Part shown: piece by piece, positions 107 to 25,203 of the stretch
Layout: every line of letters starts with the position of its first letter
Position numbering within the stretch: the first letter of the stretch is position 1
Assembly (NCBI RefSeq): GCF_003606325.2
Contig: NZ_CP031843.2
Span: 744,001 to 808,000, forward strand
Length of the DNA: 64,000 nucleotides
Direction: 5' to 3'
Origin: Bartonella kosoyi
GTDB taxonomy: Bacteria > Pseudomonadota > Alphaproteobacteria > Rhizobiales > Rhizobiaceae
Notes under the pieces: generated by a model
Database searches by the model: none
What the model was told of the DNA's origin: nothing
What the model saw: the letters and a program-made list of their open reading frames with translations, nothing else
Translations under genes and position numbers: made by a program

Positions 107-234
107 ATTTATAACAGGAGCGACTTGACAGGCTTATAACAATGTGTCTATTGTCGAATCAGGTGCCTGAAAAACACCTTGAATCGATAGCGGATAGATT
201 GCCGAAACAATCTTTTCTCCGCACATTAAAGGCT

Positions 235-264
235 TTGACTCATTGTATGCTACACGCATATAAT
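235..264 (+). promoter_or_regulatory. Promoter of the first structured leader, with palindrome
   Basis: A -35 box TTGACT (235-240) and a perfect -10 TATAAT (259-264) are separated by 18 bp. A short palindrome ATGC-N5-GCAT (247-259) lies in the spacer, overlapping the -10 box by one base, and has counterparts before the two other leader copies. The expected transcription start, about 7 nt past the -10, falls on the first base of the conserved leader at 271. Confidence 0.65.
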
Positions 265-270
265 GACTTT

Positions 271-370
271 GTCGGGTGTGGTTATGCTATACAATACCTT
301 TTATAGGGAAAGCGTGACGACGGACTATCGACCGTGTTTTTCAGCACCCGGCATCCTTTGTTGGATGTCA
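271..370 (+). ncRNA. Structured leader RNA, copy A (upstream of antirepressor gene)
   Basis: This conserved leader of about 100 nt also occurs at 16998-17098 (+) and 24302-24401 (-). Visible helices: outer P1 CGGGTG (273-278) with CACCCG (345-350); P2 GTTATGC (281-287) with GCGTGAC (312-318); P3 CCT (297-299) with AGG (305-307); P4 ACGG (320-323) with CCGT (332-335); P5 CATCC (352-356) with GGATG (363-367). P2, P3 and P5 differ in sequence among the three copies but stay paired, which supports a real RNA fold. It ends about 30 nt before the start codon, so it is a 5' UTR element. The class is not recognised. Confidence 0.7.
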
Positions 371-401
371 ATGAAAAATCTCTAATCGATAGGAGTTCGT
401 T

Positions 402-932
402 ATGAACACACTTATAGAAATTAAAGAACAAATCATTGATCAGGAAACTGTTCAGACAGTAAACGCGCGCGAATTGCATACGTTTTTGGCAATAGGAAAA
501 CGTTTTGCGACTTGGATTACGAACCGCATTAATCAGTATGCATTTGAAGAAGGAAAGGACTATATTTTAACGCTTCCCAAAATTGGGAAACGTAAAAATG
601 TTATCAGCAAAGAATATCACCTTACCTTAGATATGGCCAAAGAGCTCTCAATGGTTGAACGCAATGAGAAAGGTAGACTGGCTCGTCGTTACTTTATTGA
701 GTGTGAGAAAAAGTTAAAAAGCCAATCTGTTGATTATGACCATGATACGCGCTTTGATTTGCCAAGCCATTGGGAGGGTATGAGTGCTGGTGAAAAAGCT
801 TTGTATCTTTTAGGTCCTATTCATGTTCGTCTTATTGATGCTTTTAGAGTGGATGAAGAGAACAGAAAATATAAAGCCCTCATTAAAGAAGTAAAGCAGG
901 TTTTAGCAAGATCTGTCGTAAAAGCAGCTTAG
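402..932 (+). CDS. AntA/AntB-family phage antirepressor
   Basis: 176 residues. The AntA/AntB domain spans about residues 14-110, with the family pattern VQTVNARELHTFL, a W-rich stretch (ATWITNRINQYAF) and the signature LTLDMAKELSMVERN followed by an ARRYFIECEKK helix. Members of this family inactivate prophage repressors. The C-terminal part (from about residue 115) is unlike the KilAC domain of the second copy at 10713-11474 and is not recognised. AGGAG lies 6 nt before the ATG. A structured leader and strong promoter lie directly upstream. It sits left of host genes, so it may belong to a second prophage or remnant. Confidence 0.85.
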   Translation: MNTLIEIKEQIIDQETVQTVNARELHTFLAIGKRFATWITNRINQYAFEEGKDYILTLPKIGKRKNVISKEYHLTLDMAKELSMVERNEKGRLARRYFIECEKKLKSQSVDYDHDTRFDLPSHWEGMSAGEKALYLLGPIHVRLIDAFRVDEENRKYKALIKEVKQVLARSVVKAA

Positions 933-1181: not shown

Positions 1182-1267
1182 TGGTGCGGACGGCGGGACT
1201 TGAACCCGCAAGGTCTTCGACCGGCAGATTTTAAGTCTGCTATGTTTACCGTTTTCATCACGTCCGC
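1182..1267 (-). tRNA. tRNA-Leu (anticodon TAA)
   Basis: On the minus strand the sequence folds as a class II tRNA of 86 nt including an encoded CCA. The acceptor arm pairs GCGGACG with CGTCCGC, the anticodon arm is GCAGACTTAAAATCTGC with a TAA anticodon, and there is a long variable arm and a TTCAAGT T-loop. Discriminator A precedes CCA. It could serve as an attachment site for neighbouring phage DNA, but no duplicated 3' end was found in the window. Confidence 0.95.
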
Positions 1268-14741: not shown

Positions 14742-15107
14742 ATGCCCAGTAACAAAGTAGAGTGTGTAAAGTTTAATTCAGATCAGTTTTTAAAAGAGCT
14801 TATGGGTTTAAAAGCAACAGAGAAGGCAGTTTATACAACACTTGTGTTGCTTATGAATGATAAGAAAGCGCCTCTTATCAATAATGGGTCTTATTTATCA
14901 AGTTGGTGTGGGTGTTCAGTAAGAACGTTTCAAAAGACATTAGAGACTTTAATAAGCATGGGTTACATCACGCGTTTAGAGAATGGGAACTTATGGCATA
15001 GGTCATTAGCTTTTGATTATAGCATCAGTAAATTTTCAGAAAGAGCTTCAAAAGCAGCGCATATGAGGTGGAGTAAGAAAAGAGAGGAGGCAATACATGT
15101 CAACTAA
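14742..15107 (+). CDS. Replication-associated DNA-binding protein (winged-helix, DUF1376-like)
   Basis: 121 residues. LMGLKATEKAVYTTLVLLMN and SYLSSWCGCSVRTFQKTLET form a winged-helix-like unit as seen at the N-terminus of phage replication initiators, ending in a FSERASKAAHMRWSKKRE basic tail. The next gene has the same fold and the same FSERAxKAAxxRW tail, so the two are diverged paralogues. They overlap by 11 bp. Confidence 0.7.
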   Translation: MPSNKVECVKFNSDQFLKELMGLKATEKAVYTTLVLLMNDKKAPLINNGSYLSSWCGCSVRTFQKTLETLISMGYITRLENGNLWHRSLAFDYSISKFSERASKAAHMRWSKKREEAIHVN

Positions 15108-16212
15108 GTTGCCATGGACGAGGCTTTTTGCAGACAAGTGGCTTCTTGATCTTGCGCATTTGCCCGCTTTTGAAGGTTTTATATATGTGAAGTTGCGATT
15201 TCAAATGCTTCGCACTGGAGAACCGCTTAAGAATAATTTTCGAGTATTGTCTTTATTGGCTGGTTGCTCAGTTAAAAGATTTCAGAAAGCATTAGATCTT
15301 TTATTAGAAACTGGACACATTATTTTTTCAGAAGATGGTCGTTTGTGGAGTTTACAAGTTGAAGAGGAACTCAATAACTCAAATGAAAATTTAAGCAAGT
15401 TTTCAGAAAGAGCACAAAAGGCAGCGAAGGCAAGATGGGATAAAAATAAAGATAACAGTGATGATGATGCTAAACATGCTACAAGCAATGCACAAGCAAT
15501 GCTTAATGATGCCATTAACAATAACATTAACATTAACATTAACAATAACAAAAAAAATAAAAATATTATTTTATCAAAAAGAGAAATTGAATTTGAAAAT
15601 TTAGAAACAAACGATTTGGTTGACGAGCCAATCGAGTGTGATGATGTTCAATCAGAAGAAATCAAAACGATAGAAACTAAACAACTAATCATTCACGAGC
15701 AAAATAACAACATTTCAAACGAAGCTAATAATCGATGGCAAAGTAACGAAGCAATGATTGAGAAATTGCCTTCACGAAAAGGTAAAAAGGTTGGCAAACA
15801 ACTTTCAGAAATCGTTGACAAGATAATGCCTGCTTATTTTCCAGAGCAAGCAAACTTTTTTGAGAAAGACAAGAAAATGAGAGAAAAACAAGAAGTTGAA
15901 AGCATGTTAGAAGATTTCAACCCCGATTTTCAATACGCAATTGATCTAGGATTAACGCATGATGAAGCGTTATCAGAGTTTAAAAAATTTATACGCTTTT
16001 CAAAAGCCAACCCATATCGAAATGCTCATGAACGTGATTGGCAAAGCGCTTGGGATAATTGGATTACACACCCGAAATATGGATTGGTAGCTAAGAGACA
16101 CGCAGAATTAGAAATGAAAGAAAGATATACAATCACATGCTGTAAACCACTAACAGAGAGCTTGGCAAAATATATCAGAAATATAGAGCCTATCAGTTCA
16201 TTTGCAACATAA
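15097..16212 (+). CDS. Phage replication initiation protein (DUF1376-like)
   Basis: 371 residues. The N-terminal winged-helix domain (about 5-85: FEGFIYVKLRFQMLR, then LAGCSVKRFQKALDLLLETG) and the FSERAQKAAKARW segment match DUF1376/YdaU-type replication proteins. A low-complexity asparagine/isoleucine linker (about 140-152), encoded by AACATT-type repeats, separates it from a C-terminal domain ending HERDWQSAWDNWITHPKYG, typical of phage initiators that recruit the helicase. It probably binds the phage origin. Confidence 0.8.
   Translation: MSTKLPWTRLFADKWLLDLAHLPAFEGFIYVKLRFQMLRTGEPLKNNFRVLSLLAGCSVKRFQKALDLLLETGHIIFSEDGRLWSLQVEEELNNSNENLSKFSERAQKAAKARWDKNKDNSDDDAKHATSNAQAMLNDAINNNINININNNKKNKNIILSKREIEFENLETNDLVDEPIECDDVQSEEIKTIETKQLIIHEQNNNISNEANNRWQSNEAMIEKLPSRKGKKVGKQLSEIVDKIMPAYFPEQANFFEKDKKMREKQEVESMLEDFNPDFQYAIDLGLTHDEALSEFKKFIRFSKANPYRNAHERDWQSAWDNWITHPKYGLVAKRHAELEMKERYTITCCKPLTESLAKYIRNIEPISSFAT
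15513..15552 (+). repeat. Hexanucleotide microsatellite inside the initiator gene
   Basis: About six tandem AACATT/AACAAT units encode a run of alternating N and I. The unit is a multiple of three, so slippage would change linker length without breaking the frame. Confidence 0.7.
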
Positions 16213-16835: not shown

Positions 16836-16970
16836 AAAAAATAAAAAATACGTATTGACTTTAAAGAAAAGGTCGTTTATTAAGGTTGGCAAGTGATTAA
16901 AAACCACGATAACTAGCGGGTAAACCACGAAAAGGTTTCTCCCATTTCTTTAAAATACTGACTTTATTTT

Positions 16971-16997: not shown

Positions 16998-17098
16998 GTC
17001 GGGTGTGCTTATGCCATACAATACCCTTCGCGAGGGAAAAGTATAAGCAACGGACTAGTTACCGTGTTTTTAGCACCCGGCGCCCTTATGGGCTGTCA
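16998..17098 (+). ncRNA. Structured leader RNA, copy B (upstream of hexapeptide operon)
   Basis: Helices: P1 CGGGTG (17000-17005) with CACCCG (17074-17079); P2 GCTTATGC (17007-17014) with GTATAAGC (17041-17048); P3 CCCT (17024-17027) with AGGG (17033-17036); P4 ACGG (17050-17053) with CCGT (17062-17065); P5 GCCC (17082-17085) with GGGC (17090-17093). Compared with copy A, P2, P3 and P5 carry paired changes. The internal loops CATACAATAC and AAAAG are almost invariant, as expected for a binding site. It ends 30 nt before the ATG of the first hexapeptide gene. Confidence 0.75.
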
Positions 17099-17128
17099 AT
17101 TAAAAACTCTAAATAACTAGGTGTTAAA

Positions 17129-17653
17129 ATGCATTCTAAAGAAAAAAATCAAGAAACATCTCCAAAATATCAACTCACAAATCAAACAATCATTCGCGAA
17201 GGTAAAAAACTTTATCGCATTAAGGCGTTAAGAGATTTCGGTGATGTTAAAGCTGGTCAATTGGGCGGCTTTATTGAAAGTGAAGATAATCTCTCTCATG
17301 ATGGCAATTGCTGGGTTGGTGATCAGGCCATTGTTGTGAGTCCTGGTCGTGTTTATGATAATGCGCAGGTTTATGGCAATGCAGGTGTTGGTGGTTTTGT
17401 ATATGGTAATGCTCGCGTCTACGATTCAGCAAAGGTTTTTGCCAATGCCCATGTGTATGATAATGCCCATGTTTTCGATAGTGCAAAAATTGTAAGTAAA
17501 GTGCATGTTTATGAAAATGCCAATGCATGTGGCATGGCTATTGTTACTAAGAATATTTGTGGTGACACAATGAATAATGTTTATACAGAACGCCTTTCTC
17601 CTTATGGTGAAATTTGCTTTGTTATGTGTCGTCCTCATAGGAAAACAGCTTAA
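17129..17653 (+). CDS. Hexapeptide-repeat (left-handed beta-helix) phage protein 4
   Basis: 174 residues. Head domain (YQLTNQTIIREGKKLYRIKA, RDFGDVKAGQLGGFIESEDN, SHDGNCWVGDQA) followed by repeats such as VYDNAQVYGNAGVGGFVYGN. The C-terminal tail contains YTERLSPYGE, nearly the same as the tail of the gene at 22023-22601 on the opposite strand, while the heads differ more. It is the first gene after leader copy B. Confidence 0.8.
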   Translation: MHSKEKNQETSPKYQLTNQTIIREGKKLYRIKALRDFGDVKAGQLGGFIESEDNLSHDGNCWVGDQAIVVSPGRVYDNAQVYGNAGVGGFVYGNARVYDSAKVFANAHVYDNAHVFDSAKIVSKVHVYENANACGMAIVTKNICGDTMNNVYTERLSPYGEICFVMCRPHRKTA

Positions 17654-17656
17654 ATA

Positions 17657-17733
17657 ACGCGCGGGCGCGGCGGGGCGCCCCCTTTTAAACATTTCATTTT
17701 AAAATTTAAATCTTTTTATAAAGGAATAGTGTT
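17657..17733 (+). repeat. GC-rich spacer repeat between hexapeptide genes
   Basis: A block of G and C (CGCGCGGGCGCGGCGGGGCG) followed by CCCCC and an AT-rich stretch ending AAAGGAATAGTGTT before the ATG. Reverse-complement copies lie at 22602-22680 and 23470-23540, with a weaker relative at 21955-22020. In such AT-rich DNA these identical spacers are probably recombination sites between cassettes, or transcript hairpins. Confidence 0.7.
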
Positions 17734-18537
17734 ATGCAAAAGAAATTTGCACTCACAAATGAAACGCGTATATTTAATAATAAAACTCTTTATCGCATTA
17801 AAGCTTTAAGAGATTTTGATGATGTCAAAGCTGGTCAATTGGGCGGCTTTATTGAAAAGGAAAACAATCTCTCTCATGATGGCAACTGCTGGGTTTATGA
17901 TAATGCTCTTGTTTTAAGTCCAGCCCATATTTACGAAAATGCCAAGATTTTTAATAAGGCTATTATAATGGGTAATGTTTATGGCAATGCTCATGTGTAT
18001 GACAGTGCCCGCGTTTATGCAAATGCTCATGTTTATGACAATGCGCATCTTTCTTATAATGCTTGGGTTTATCATCAGGCGCGGGTTTATGGCAATGCAA
18101 AATTATCAGGAAGTGCACGTATTCATGGCAATGCTGAGGTTTATGATTATGCTGTTGTTAGTGGTGCTGCTAAAATTTATGGCAAGGTTTATGGTCGTGC
18201 TAGTGTGGGGTGCCATGCTGAGATTAAAGGCTTTGTTTATGGCAATGCAAAAGTATCAGGATCTGCTTGTATTTATGATGGTGCGCATATTTTTGATAAA
18301 GCAAGGGTTTATGGAAAAGCGGTTGTTTATAAAGATGTCAAGATTTATGGCAATGCGCGTGTTTATGAGAATGCTATGATTTATGAAAAAGTAGAAATCT
18401 ATGATGACGCGTGTGTTTCTAACAGATCTATTATTGCTGAGGGTGTAAAAATTTATGGCAATGCCGCTCTTAAAGAAAAGAAAATATTTCGTGAAGATGT
18501 TTGTAGTAATGATGCCATTAGTGAAAAAGCAGCGTAA
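17734..18537 (+). CDS. Hexapeptide-repeat (left-handed beta-helix) phage protein 5
   Basis: 267 residues, the longest of the family, with about 30 helix turns (for example VYANAHVYDNAHLSYNAWVY). The head MQKKFALTNETRIFNNKTLY and the spacer before it match the gene at 22023-22601 on the other strand, but the tail (NDAISEKAA) differs. This head/tail exchange is direct evidence of shuffling. Second gene after leader copy B; a terminator follows. Confidence 0.8.
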   Translation: MQKKFALTNETRIFNNKTLYRIKALRDFDDVKAGQLGGFIEKENNLSHDGNCWVYDNALVLSPAHIYENAKIFNKAIIMGNVYGNAHVYDSARVYANAHVYDNAHLSYNAWVYHQARVYGNAKLSGSARIHGNAEVYDYAVVSGAAKIYGKVYGRASVGCHAEIKGFVYGNAKVSGSACIYDGAHIFDKARVYGKAVVYKDVKIYGNARVYENAMIYEKVEIYDDACVSNRSIIAEGVKIYGNAALKEKKIFREDVCSNDAISEKAA

Positions 18538-22681: not shown

Positions 22682-23455
22682 TTACGCAGCGTCTTTTCTA
22701 GACTGATTATCATCACAAATATCATTCGTAATTTTTTCACGGCTATTAACCACGGCATTACCATAGATTTGTACATCATGATCAATATTGGATTTACCAT
22801 AGACCTTTGCATTTTCATAAATTCTTGCAAAGGAGCCCACCCGAGCCGAGCCAGAAACCTTTGCATCATCAAAAATACTTGCAAAACTCTTAATCCAAGC
22901 ATTACAAAAGACATGGGCATTGCCATAAATACACGCCCCCCCATAAATGCGTGATTTACCATAAACATGGGAATTCCCATAAACAAAGCCACTCACATGA
23001 GCATTTTCATATACACGGGCATTATCATAAATATGTGCACTAGGAGAAACATTAGCATTATCACAAACCATGGCATTGCCATAAACTAGACCACAGATCC
23101 TAGCATTGTTACTAATTTTTGCATTGTCATAAATGCTAGCATCATGACCGAATACCCATGCCTTATCACAAACCACAGCATTCCCATAAACTTTAGCTTC
23201 CCTAGCAATAATGGCATCATGATGTATTTTTGCATTTTCAGAAACGACGGCATTGCAAAAAACCATAGCATTATCATAGACCCAGCAATTGCCATCATGG
23301 GAGAGGTTGTTTTCATTTTCAATAAAACCGCCCAATTGACCAGCCCTAACATCATCAAAATCTCTTAAAGCACGAATGCGGTGTACAGTAATCCCTTCAA
23401 AAGTATGATTTTCATTAGTCAATTCATATTTTTTAGATACAGTTATAGTGGACAT
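22682..23455 (-). CDS. Hexapeptide-repeat (left-handed beta-helix) phage protein 8
   Basis: 257 residues. The head is VSKKYELTNENHTFEGITVH with RDFDDVRAGQLGGFIENENN, then about 28 turns (ISNNARICGLVYGNAMVCDN). The tail ends SRKDAA. It is flanked on both sides by the GC-rich spacer repeat, so it is bounded like a cassette. Confidence 0.8.
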   Translation of the reverse strand: MSTITVSKKYELTNENHTFEGITVHRIRALRDFDDVRAGQLGGFIENENNLSHDGNCWVYDNAMVFCNAVVSENAKIHHDAIIAREAKVYGNAVVCDKAWVFGHDASIYDNAKISNNARICGLVYGNAMVCDNANVSPSAHIYDNARVYENAHVSGFVYGNSHVYGKSRIYGGACIYGNAHVFCNAWIKSFASIFDDAKVSGSARVGSFARIYENAKVYGKSNIDHDVQIYGNAVVNSREKITNDICDDNQSRKDAA

Positions 23456-23469
23456 AGGTAACTCCCTAA

Positions 23470-23540
23470 GTTTATATTTGATAAATTTTAGAATGAGATT
23501 TTTAAAGAGGGGCGCCCCCGCCGCGCCCGCGCGTTATTTA
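23470..23540 (-). repeat. GC-rich spacer repeat (third copy)
   Basis: The same GC block as at 22655-22680, with a shorter related AT-rich arm, placed between proteins 8 and 9. Confidence 0.65.
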
Positions 23541-24269
23541 CGCAGCATCATTTTCATATTCGCTATCATCGTCATAATACCATTCACAATCAGCATAATA
23601 CTCATGACGGTAATAATCATCTTCACTTCCAAATTCTGGATATGCCTCATCCCAAATATGATCATCAGCAGTTAAAGAGGCGGCGCTATGAACATAAGAA
23701 TCGCCAGAGATAAGAGCCCCACAAACCACGGCATCATCAAAAACACGCGAGCCATCACAAATATGAGCAGCGCCGCTTATTTTAGCATTGCCACCGACAT
23801 GAGCATCATCACAAATAACGGCATCATCACAAATATGAGCATGATCAGTGACGCGGGCGTTATCATAAATTTTAGCATTACCTTCAATTACAACGGCATT
23901 GCTAACATGAGCATTTCCATAAAGCTTTGCATTGTCCTTTAATAACATGCCTTCAAAAATAGCATTACCATAAATTCTTGCATTACCACAAACATCAACA
24001 AAAAAGCTTTTTACTTTAGCATTGCCTGAAACCCTTGCATTTTGAAAGACGCGCGCTTTGTCATAAACCCAGCAATTGCCTTTGTGAGATAAGTTACTTT
24101 CGTTTTCAATATACCCCCCAAGATCGCCCGCTTTGACATCACCAAAATCTCTTAAAGCACGTATACGGTATAATATGAGACCAGTCACAAAATCCATTTC
24201 GCCAGTAAACTCATACTTTTTGGATATTTTTTTCTTATTAACGGGGGTAATTTTTGAGATATTTGTCAT
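23538..24269 (-). CDS. Hexapeptide-repeat (left-handed beta-helix) phage protein 9
   Basis: 243 residues. An N-terminal extension (TNISKITPVNKKKI) precedes the head (KKYEFTGEMDFVTGLILYRI, RDFGDVKAGDLGGYIENESN). The turns are unusually rich in aspartate and histidine (HICDDAVICDDAHVGGNAKI). The last 45 residues are acidic and tyrosine-rich (DDYYRHEYYADCEWYYDDDS), not a helix repeat. It is the first gene after leader copy C and the most divergent member. Confidence 0.8.
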   Translation of the reverse strand: MTNISKITPVNKKKISKKYEFTGEMDFVTGLILYRIRALRDFGDVKAGDLGGYIENESNLSHKGNCWVYDKARVFQNARVSGNAKVKSFFVDVCGNARIYGNAIFEGMLLKDNAKLYGNAHVSNAVVIEGNAKIYDNARVTDHAHICDDAVICDDAHVGGNAKISGAAHICDGSRVFDDAVVCGALISGDSYVHSAASLTADDHIWDEAYPEFGSEDDYYRHEYYADCEWYYDDDSEYENDAA

Positions 24270-24301
24270 AATTAAAACCTTATGGTTATATGTTTGTTAT
24301 T

Positions 24302-24401
24302 GACACCCCTATAAGGGCGCCGGGCGCTAACAAACACGGCCATAAGTCCGTTGTCACACTTTTCTCATAAAGAGTATTGTATGGTGTGACCACACCCGAC
24401 A
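24302..24401 (-). ncRNA. Structured leader RNA, copy C (upstream of leftward hexapeptide operon)
   Basis: Minus-strand helices: P1 CGGGTG (24398-24393) with CGCCCG (24326-24321); P2 GTCACAC (24390-24384) with GTGTGAC (24359-24353); P3 CTC (24374-24372) with GAG (24366-24364); P4 ACGG (24351-24348) with CCGT (24339-24336); P5 CGCCC (24319-24315) with GGGTG (24308-24304). P2 differs from copies A and B at several positions and stays fully paired, and P3 swaps CCCT/AGGG for CTC/GAG. The ATG is about 30 nt further on. Confidence 0.75.
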
Positions 24402-24429: not shown

Positions 24430-25203
24430 AAAAGAAAGTCAGTTTTTATAATAGGATTAGGTTTATCGCAACCTAGTCGCTTATGGTTTAGTGTTTGTTA
24501 ATCACTTAATTATTTATATAACAAAATACGTATTTATTGTCAATTAATATTTTATCTTTTTTGATATTTTTTTGTATTTTTTTAAATACGTTGTGTATTG
24601 ATAATATCTTATGCTTATGAATTGCTTCTTTTATATTTATGTGCTTTTAAAGCTATATTATGGGCTTTATAAAACGATTGCGTTATGTTTTGAATCTATA
24701 CATTTATAATATTTAAAAACGCTCTCATAATGCGTATTTTTATCTTTATAACCTATCAGTTTTTTCACTAAATGAATTTAAATTTTTTTGTGAATTTTGT
24801 TTATAACGCATTTGCAACTTAACAGCTTTTTATAGGAACTGTTTTTATAACCAACGCATTCATTTGTATTATGATTATAAAACCTTGCTGTTTTTATGCA
24901 TTCTTTATAACCGTTATATGCTTTACAGCCACCGCATCATTTTTCATTTTCATAAGAGAAAAGATAAATAGGATAATTGCGATTTATAGACTGTTATGAA
25001 AACACTTATGAAAACATCTAAAGAGAGTTTGATAACTATAGAGATTAGAAAAATCCCTTTTATTGAATTTTATCAGTTCTTTTGAATGATAACCTTATGA
25101 TTTAGAGAATGATTACAACGTGCTTTATGAAAATCATGTGATCCTTTAAAGCTTTTCAAAAGATAGCTTGTAACTTATAAGAGATGCTATCAAGATCATT
25201 AGG
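24430..25203. other. Non-coding AT-rich stretch
   Basis: No gene seen. Recurrent TTATAAC words (for example TTTATAACC, TTATAACCAACGC, CTTTATAACCG) appear every 50-100 bp on the plus strand. Meaning unknown. Confidence 0.4.

Follow-up and report, generated by a model that had tools for sequence, protein, structure and literature searches.

A multi-copy leader RNA of Bartonella kosoyi is a divergent relative of sRNA-Xcc1 and probably a C4-like antisense RNA of phage genes

Introduction

The stretch of Bartonella kosoyi DNA analysed here (contig NZ_CP031843.2, positions 744,001 to 808,000; 64,000 nucleotides, hereafter the window) carries three copies of an element of about 100 nt, each shortly before the start codon of a gene. 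A first-pass annotation described them as copies of a structured leader RNA whose differences preserve base pairing. Which RNA is this, what do the differences between its copies encode, and how might it act on the genes behind it? The features of the three copies are collected in Table 1.

Table 1. Window coordinates of the three RNA copies, their pairing addresses and targets, and the genes behind them
Copy	Feature	Positions	Strand	Basis or remark
1	Upstream promoter-like site TTGACA-18 nt-TATTGT	125-154	+	Before upstream target; by eye
1	Upstream target a1 TGAAAAAC	168-175	+	Complement of linker 336-343
1	Upstream target b1 TCGATAG	184-190	+	Complement of P4 loop; permutation test
1	Hairpin GCGGATAGATTG..CAATC..TCCGC	190-222	+	By eye; outside the terminator criteria
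1	Sigma-70-like promoter TTGACT-18-TATAAT	235-264	+	Promoter scan, 11/12 matches
1	sRNA-Xcc1-like RNA	271-370	+	RF02221, 44.6 bits (L013)
1	Helices P1, P2/P3 arm, P4, P5	P1 271-278/345-352; P4 320-335	+	
1	P4 loop, address b' CTATCGA	325-331	+	
1	Linker P4 to P1, address a' GTTTTTCA	336-343	+	
1	Downstream target a2 TGAAAAAT	372-379	+	7 Watson-Crick pairs and one G-U
1	Downstream target b2 TCGATAG	386-392	+	Overlaps Shine-Dalgarno AGGAG 391-395
1	AntA/AntB antirepressor gene	402-932	+	Pfam AntA 1.9e-25; PHROG anti-repressor
2	Upstream promoter-like site TTGACT-17 nt-TATTAA	16855-16883	+	By eye
2	Upstream target a1 TAAAAAC	16898-16904	+	
2	Upstream target b1 TAACTAG	16910-16916	+	
2	sRNA-Xcc1-like RNA	16998-17098	+	P1 16998-17005/17074-17081, P4 17050-17065
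2	P4 loop, address b' CTAGTTA	17055-17061	+	
2	Linker, address a' GTTTTTAG	17066-17073	+	
2	Downstream target a2 TAAAAAC	17101-17107	+	
2	Downstream target b2 TAACTAG	17114-17120	+	Overlaps Shine-Dalgarno AGG
2	YdcK-type beta-solenoid phage protein gene (phrog_5070, function unassigned)	17129-17653	+	Pfam, PHROG
3	Upstream promoter-like site TTGACA-17 nt-TATATA	24515-24543	-	By eye
3	Upstream target a1 TAACAAAC	24493-24500	-	
3	Upstream target b1 CCATAAG	24480-24486	-	
3	sRNA-Xcc1-like RNA	24302-24401	-	RF02221, 40.7 bits (L008)
3	Helices P1, P4	P1 24393-24400/24319-24326; P4 24336-24351	-	
3	P4 loop, address b' CTTATGG	24340-24346	-	
3	Linker, address a' GTTTGTTAG	24327-24335	-	
3	Downstream target a2 TAACAAAC	24292-24299	-	
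3	Downstream target b2 CCATAAG	24279-24285	-	Overlaps Shine-Dalgarno AAGG
3	YdcK-type beta-solenoid phage protein gene (phrog_5070)	23538-24269	-	Pfam, PHROG

Results

All three copies were recovered at the positions first proposed, with a mean column identity of 80% in a 209-column alignment that includes the flanks. Three is the number for the window only; by DNA similarity the genome holds 16. The helices that had been proposed are present. P1 is formed by GTCGGGTG/CACCCGGC in copies 1 and 2 and by CGCCCGGC in copy 3; in copies 1, 2 and 3, respectively, P2 reads GTTATGC/GCGTGAC, CTTATGC/GTATAAG and GTCACAC/GTGTGAC, P3 reads CCT/AGG, CCCT/AGGG and CTC/GAG, and P5 reads CATCC/GGATG, GCCC/GGGC and CGCCC/GGGTG. 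The start codons (ATG at 402, 17129 and 24269) follow the element after about 30 nt, as had been noted, and the description as a structured 5' leader RNA placed to regulate the downstream gene is borne out.

The compensatory changes are real when pair counts over 42 copies from the genus are set against shuffles and slid partners. P1, P3 and P4 are paired in 100% of the cells and P2 in 98.4%, compared with 38-47% when the partners are slid, and two-sided changes occur at 2 pairs of P1, 1 of P3, 1 of P4 and 4 of P2. At most 1 of 500 shuffles matched the observed values of P1-P4. P5 is paired in 69% of the cells; two pairs each were taken for P3 and P5. These 42 rows come from the 49 elements of the genus set, called 'Bart', of which 6 were skipped (some for lack of pairing) and 2 of the other 43 left out, with L008 added. 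By folding energy alone, the three window copies are only some 2 standard deviations better than shuffled sequence (z -2.1, -2.2 and -2.5 for copies 1-3). The predicted structures of copies 1 and 3 also show an anti-P1 hairpin (GTGTG/CATAC), terminator-like in copy 3; by eye it is not conserved outside the genus.

One of the supposedly invariant loops has to be redrawn. In GGACT, two nucleotides belong to a fourth hairpin, P4 (ACGG/CCGT), as part of its 5' strand, and the remainder opens its loop. Changes in this loop are matched by changes in the Shine-Dalgarno region and at a site upstream of the RNA. The variation between copies is largely a base-pairing address for the ribosome-binding region and that upstream site.

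From the sigma-70-like promoter of copy 1, transcription would be expected to start at about 271, coinciding with the end of P1. Promoter scans for copies 2 and 3 gave no site on the right strand in the intervals scanned, which do not include the upstream promoter-like sites of Table 1.

At its normal cut-off Rfam reported a tRNA in the whole window and nothing else; this tRNA match (1185-1267, minus strand, 60 bits) follows the AntA gene of copy 1 at a distance of about 250 nt. A permissive Rfam search with 186 nt around copy 2 aligned the whole model of RF02221 (sRNA-Xcc1) at 45.4 bits (E 2.4e-7). All 16 genome copies align end to end with this model (positions 1-87) at 39.1-52.5 bits, the window copies at 40.7-45.4, so that the element can no longer be called undescribed; the first-pass annotation had itself counted a match of this kind as a refutation. 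None of the 16 reaches the gathering cut-off of 53 bits. In the search of relatives 26 of 61 genomes, the source genome included, had RF02221 matches, all 26 from the same genus; 21 of the 61 had matches above 53 bits and one relative has 44 matches. Because the match is full-length while all 16 copies stay below 53 bits and genus relatives exceed it, we place the element, by its alignment to the model, as a divergent branch of this known RNA family rather than a curated member. Across the phylum RF02221 matched 58 of 398 sampled genomes, 39 of them over the cut-off, and no match was found in 14 control genomes. Among the matches listed, the element is also present on contigs of B. raoultii and Bartonella sp. 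G70. The P2/P3 arm contains the motif AUACAAnACCC..GGGGAA (window 289-311 and equivalents), written in upper case in the Rfam consensus; 60 of 74 elements have ATACAA exactly, and the variants ATAAAA and ATATAA also occur.

Chen 2011, known to us by title, is reportedly the main paper on sRNA-Xcc1. Rfam lists the RNA as an sRNA gene, and its model ends before the downstream targets described below. According to the excerpted literature, it measures 88 nt by RACE and about 100 nt by Northern blot in X. campestris (PMC2996969), appears in an EHEC table as an 89-nt RNA with a value of 0.02, which we take as ribosomal coverage (PMC5331693), and stands upstream of symE in Xanthomonas integron cassettes (PMC12444791). 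Papers on Xanthomonas, Xylella and E. coli annotate it, and a role as a virulence or vesicle-borne sRNA has been discussed (PMC2996969, PMC12189769, PMC12444791, PMC5331693). No tie to C4-type pairing was found in the excerpts that name sRNA-Xcc1, and the novelty of what follows is limited to the searchable literature, outside which Chen 2011 lies.

In the window copies, each P4 loop is complementary, without mismatch over 7 nt, to a segment overlapping the Shine-Dalgarno sequence of the next gene (CTATCGA/TCGATAG, CTAGTTA/TAACTAG and CTTATGG/CCATAAG for copies 1, 2 and 3). The linker between P4 and P1 matches the segment just before the Shine-Dalgarno site, and each of the two matches is found a second time on the upstream side of the RNA. 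We call the loop b' and its matches b1 (upstream) and b2 (downstream), the linker a' and its matches a1 and a2; addresses and targets change together.

The least filtered test comprised 74 elements, one per locus (L001-L076 without L042 and without L038, a repeat of L005), placed by RF02221 coordinates with the hairpin taken by position and an exact 7-mer complement sought, no motif or pairing filter being applied. An exact complement of the loop lay upstream in 59 of the 74, downstream in 55, on both sides in 48 and on either side in 66. With swapped loops the rates were 1.7-3.2% upstream, 1.3-1.7% downstream and 0.1-0.6% for both. By origin, the downstream and upstream counts were 13/16 and 12/16 in the source genome, 26/28 and 25/28 in the rest of the genus, and 16/30 and 22/30 among the phylum elements. 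Two of the genome's own copies, L003 and L006, count here as having no match, their hairpin being misplaced; both have exact downstream matches elsewhere. The set 'Bart', chosen by motif and fold only, gave 42/49 downstream and 40/49 upstream.

Since the MAFFT alignment is poor in the target region and its loop-to-target counts are low there, we used counts anchored by P4 and the conserved AGG. In the 42 genus rows, for which pairing was one selection criterion, 290 of 294 loop-to-b2 cells are Watson-Crick and none is G-U. The pairing is fully Watson-Crick in 41 rows; the remaining one, L040, is an anchor slip whose aligned letters hold the exact complement. These rows contain 23 distinct loops going with 23 targets. 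Slid partners paired in 25-43% of the cells, and no permutation out of 10,000 gave more than 198 cells.

A larger sample of 266 elements, among the matches listed, was drawn from four sources (49 of set 'Bart', 27 from the phylum, 101 from genome_contigs and 89 from viral contigs), chosen by the core motif and the P1/P4 fold and not by pairing; it does not include L006 and L008 (copy 3) of the source genome, in which the motif is missed. Only identical duplicates were removed, and relatedness is uncontrolled in all these statistics, with which in mind the loops score 16.75 against their own downstream region and 12.26 (sd 0.13) against permuted ones, the own region being better in every one of the four sources. 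At least 6 bp ending near the start codon were found in 201 of the 266, compared with 36.6 for swapped pairs. An earlier comparison over 45 rows had given a mean run of 6.87, versus 5.16 for mismatched partners.

In loci added later the exact downstream 7-mer is present in 24 of 29 distinct rows, and in 44 of 53 when older loci of the same five genomes are included. It is present in 15 of 15 of the genome's own copies that were caught; the 16th, L016, has an exact upstream match and none downstream. Nine of the 53 rows lack it. Three of these are one position off. Among the other six, the copies examined include an exact address partner for only two, and one with a G-U pair for a third. The copies L016, L035 (-1549), L044 (-1275), L029 (-1276), L338, L370 and L372 keep the hairpin and loop while their downstream site has no match, and behind several of them a new TTGACA stretch can be seen by eye. 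For both L029 and L370, a second copy of the same genome carries a target that fits the address; L044 has the same address as L359, whose target pairs with one G-U.

The linker was scored only in elements with a match already found. Against a2 it scored 15.54, and 10.74 (sd 0.17) when permuted, in 197 of the 201 elements with a downstream match; the complementarity is at least 5 bp in 188 of these 197. On the upstream side, b1 scored 17.32 versus 12.53 permuted (sd 0.13) in 249 elements. The score limit was exceeded in 197 of the 249; 148 of those sites end 66-85 nt before P1, and the rest are scattered and partly due to chance. In 194 of these 197 the linker complement a1 just before b1 scored 17.17 versus 11.29 permuted (sd 0.19). 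By this loose score 160 of the 249 elements match on both sides, 37 upstream only, 36 downstream only and 16 on neither. Exact 7-mers in 205 elements were found upstream in 148, downstream in 127, on both sides in 102 and on either in 173, compared with 2.9% upstream, 2.4% downstream and 0.3% on both with swapped loops. The 249 of the 266 and the 205 were retained for upstream room, linker filters or loop length, and one look-alike viral group was removed.

Downstream blocking is not universal, because elements whose P4 stem is CCGC/GCGG have an exact upstream match in 26 of 28 cases and one near the downstream start codon in 3 of 28, and because 37 of the 249 elements above match upstream only and 16 on neither side. 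Where titles are given among the matches listed, the CCGC/GCGG elements belong mostly to Xanthomonas and its relatives, and in nearly all of them the upstream complement lies about 93-109 nt before the conserved ATACAA. Outside set 'Bart', a terminator-like hairpin stands between the upstream site and the RNA in 100 of 152 elements, where shuffled sequence gives about 11; 27 of 36 upstream-only elements have one. Within the set, the terminator criteria give 0 of 42 (1.4 in shuffled sequence). The attenuation that the first-pass annotation had suggested thus survives as a possible second effect, at the upstream site. The hairpin at 190-222 of copy 1 sits where many relatives outside the genus have their terminator-like hairpin. 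For the Xanthomonas type, the upstream site together with such a hairpin points to an action on transcription rather than translation. Since the founding RNA of the family is from Xanthomonas and this type is mostly upstream-only, a block of translation is unsupported for the founder itself.

The genes behind the RNA often encode phage antirepressors in the sets searched with Pfam. Of 186 representative downstream proteins, the 129 with pairing found and at least 45 aa gave Rha 20, AntA 17, ANT 10, Bro-N 8, ORF6N 8, KilA-N 6, YdcK solenoid 6, P22_AR_C 5 and SymE 4, with overlapping matches, and 47 of the downstream proteins match one antirepressor PHROG. Elements without a downstream match (32 of 42 representatives, at least 60 aa) gave Bro-N 4 and SymE 2. 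An antirepressor follows copy 1 and many relatives; the genes behind copies 2 and 3 encode YdcK solenoids and not antirepressors. Two phrog_5070 beta-solenoid genes stand in a row behind copy 2 (17129-18537) and likewise behind copy 3 (22682-24269), and two adjacent genes upstream of copy 2 (14742-16212) match phage primosomal proteins.

The closest counterpart in layout is C4 of phages P1 and P7 (RF01695, with c4-a1b1 as RF03163), which has the common order a1 b1, RNA, a2 b2, gene. The phage P1 record annotates a1, b1, c4, a2 and b2, followed by icd and ant, and P1 c4 holds the reverse complement of b2 in its last hairpin loop and that of a2 in the linker, the positions used by the Bartonella element as well. 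Both have b2 at the ribosome-binding site and two arms closed by P1, both consensus lines carry CCACCC at the 3' end, and an antirepressor operon is common to C4, copy 1 and many relatives. The C4-type combination of two addresses and two target pairs is found in the window copies, and the 48 of 74 elements above have both sides. The Bartonella element differs in its longer first arm with the conserved AUACAAnACCC..GGGGAA, a motif that the C4 consensus lacks. P1 c4 arises through processing by RNase P (PMC5320573, as excerpted); copy 1 in contrast has a promoter directly at the RNA. In P1 and P7 specificity is set by a few nucleotides, according to the same excerpt (PMC5320573). A crude loop search covered 16 RF01695 loci and P1. 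An exact downstream complement, at a distance of about 80-84 nt, turned up in P1 and in 6 of the 16, and upstream complements in 3; the remaining loci, some of them missed by the pattern, gave none. The C4 covariance model gave no match in 16 loci at E up to 0.5 and none in the source genome. Membership of C4 by sequence is therefore ruled out, and the model lends no support to common descent. By its full-length match in all 16 copies, it is sRNA-Xcc1 that has the same fold.

The IsrK-orf45-AnrP region of Gifsy-1 (RF01394) is also similar in layout, with a promoter, a short RNA with terminator and, by read-through, a silent mRNA that encodes an antirepressor-like protein (PMC4825925, as excerpted); it differs in that set 'Bart' has no canonical terminator. 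No isrK covariance match was found in 16 loci at E up to 0.5, which excludes isrK membership by sequence. In the six C4 loci scanned, isrK matches lay just before C4 in all six, three over the isrK cut-off. In phage P4 the complementary sites seqA and seqC flank the CI RNA upstream and downstream (PMC4825925, as excerpted); CI RNA differs in terminating transcription of replication genes, and we liken it by description, not by sequence. The Brt RNAs of Bartonella henselae, with which a comparison had been advised, are likewise multi-copy RNAs of the genus in a region with mobile elements. As described in the excerpted text they are 194-203 nt long and in tandem with genes for DNA-binding proteins (PMC5387305), and at this level of description they are ruled out by size (about 100 versus about 200 nt) and by neighbours (AntA and YdcK solenoids).

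Discussion

How the leader acts is suggested by the arrangement of its addresses. Most likely, judging from the sequences, it keeps phage genes silent by base pairing, as P1 c4 does. We put at about three in four the probability of the full reading, that these elements are a second, C4-like family of phage antisense RNAs that block translation of antirepressor and other phage genes and form self-contained, trans-acting modules giving immunity. Each module would consist of upstream a1 b1, a folded RNA of about 90-100 nt with the sRNA-Xcc1 fold, and a2 b2 at the ribosome-binding site. Pairing of b' with the Shine-Dalgarno region and of a' just before it would block translation. The RNA would act in trans as a separate molecule; pairing within one and the same transcript would be an initial or further mode. 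A separate RNA is supported, by analogy, by other members of the family, namely the 88 nt (RACE) and approximately 100 nt (Northern) species of Xanthomonas in the excerpted report (PMC2996969). At a1 b1, pairing could cause premature termination, as with phage P4 CI RNA; alternatively, a short upstream transcript could titrate the RNA, as IsrK does in Gifsy-1. In this way a prophage would silence not only its own antirepressor but also the one brought in by a phage that shares the address, and the differing addresses within one genome would keep the modules apart.

The strongest competitor, to which we give roughly one chance in seven, far less than the antisense reading, is a purely cis-acting lock in which the P4 loop and linker pair with the Shine-Dalgarno region within one mRNA and some signal opens the structure. 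Loop and target do lie close together in one likely transcript. In the minimum-energy folds of copies 1 and 3 the long-range a'b'/a2b2 helix forms and P1 and P4 are broken (the fold of copy 2 retains the RNA structure), and isrK-orf45 of Gifsy-1 offers a precedent for a translationally silent cis structure (PMC4825925, as excerpted). A lock of this kind alone, however, leaves unexplained the upstream copy of both targets, the upstream-only elements and the copies without a downstream match. It would also do with a shorter anti-Shine-Dalgarno stretch, whereas a perfect 7-bp match is kept across 23 addresses, and the discrete 88-nt RNA of Xanthomonas (PMC2996969, as excerpted) argues against it.

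That the RNA is a trans-acting sRNA of the virulence type with many host mRNA targets is improbable, even though sRNA-Xcc1 is so presented in the excerpted literature (PMC2996969, PMC12189769), where the published target lists are predictions. The matches we found adjoin the RNA and covary with it, and the loops differ between copies in one genome. Slightly less probable still is a riboswitch-like leader that senses a metabolite or protein, with the AUACAAnACCC..GGGGAA arm as its pocket. This arm is the most conserved part of the Rfam consensus and plays no assigned part in the antisense model, but nothing was found in support of the metabolite or protein ligand envisaged at first, and the variation is concentrated in the matched pairing addresses. 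A metabolite riboswitch in particular finds no support in the downstream genes, whose products (antirepressors, SymE, beta-solenoid phage proteins) suggest no common metabolic function. Recent duplication without function hardly needs consideration: the copies are paralogous and phage-like genes stand nearby, but duplication cannot create matched changes at separate places, and the permuted, swapped and slid controls, which fail to reproduce the pairing, rule out chance and plain paralogy.

The antisense reading offers a concrete, directly testable mechanism for RF02221. If it is true, such RNAs would be prophage or integron regulators with readable addresses, their targets predictable from the loop sequence, and temperate phages could be grouped, through the loop addresses, according to the immunity predicted for them. 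Given the 58 of 398 phylum genomes with RF02221, such a second C4-like family would be widespread. More speculatively, and with the odds against it, sRNA-Xcc1 might belong to phylum-wide C4-type phage immunity RNAs with swappable 7-nt addresses, forming orthogonal sets in each genome (16 copies here, 44 in one relative); copies without a gene could be an RNA memory that silences the antirepressors of incoming phages with the same address, and the AUACAA..GGGGAA arm could bind a dedicated partner absent from C4.

In X. fastidiosa De Donno an sRNA-Xcc1 annotation adjoins isrK and C4 annotations, and Temecula1 has five sRNA-Xcc1 copies about 380 nt apart (PMC12189769, as excerpted); the Xylella arrangement would fit tandem phage immunity modules. 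A distinct group from viral contigs was also caught by the pattern (L196, L201, L217, L228, L231, L278 and L314), with the loop ATGCGG or GTGCGG. Its members may represent a separate leader of their own, having a CCATCGGAAT stretch and a complement of the loop shortly before the ATG.
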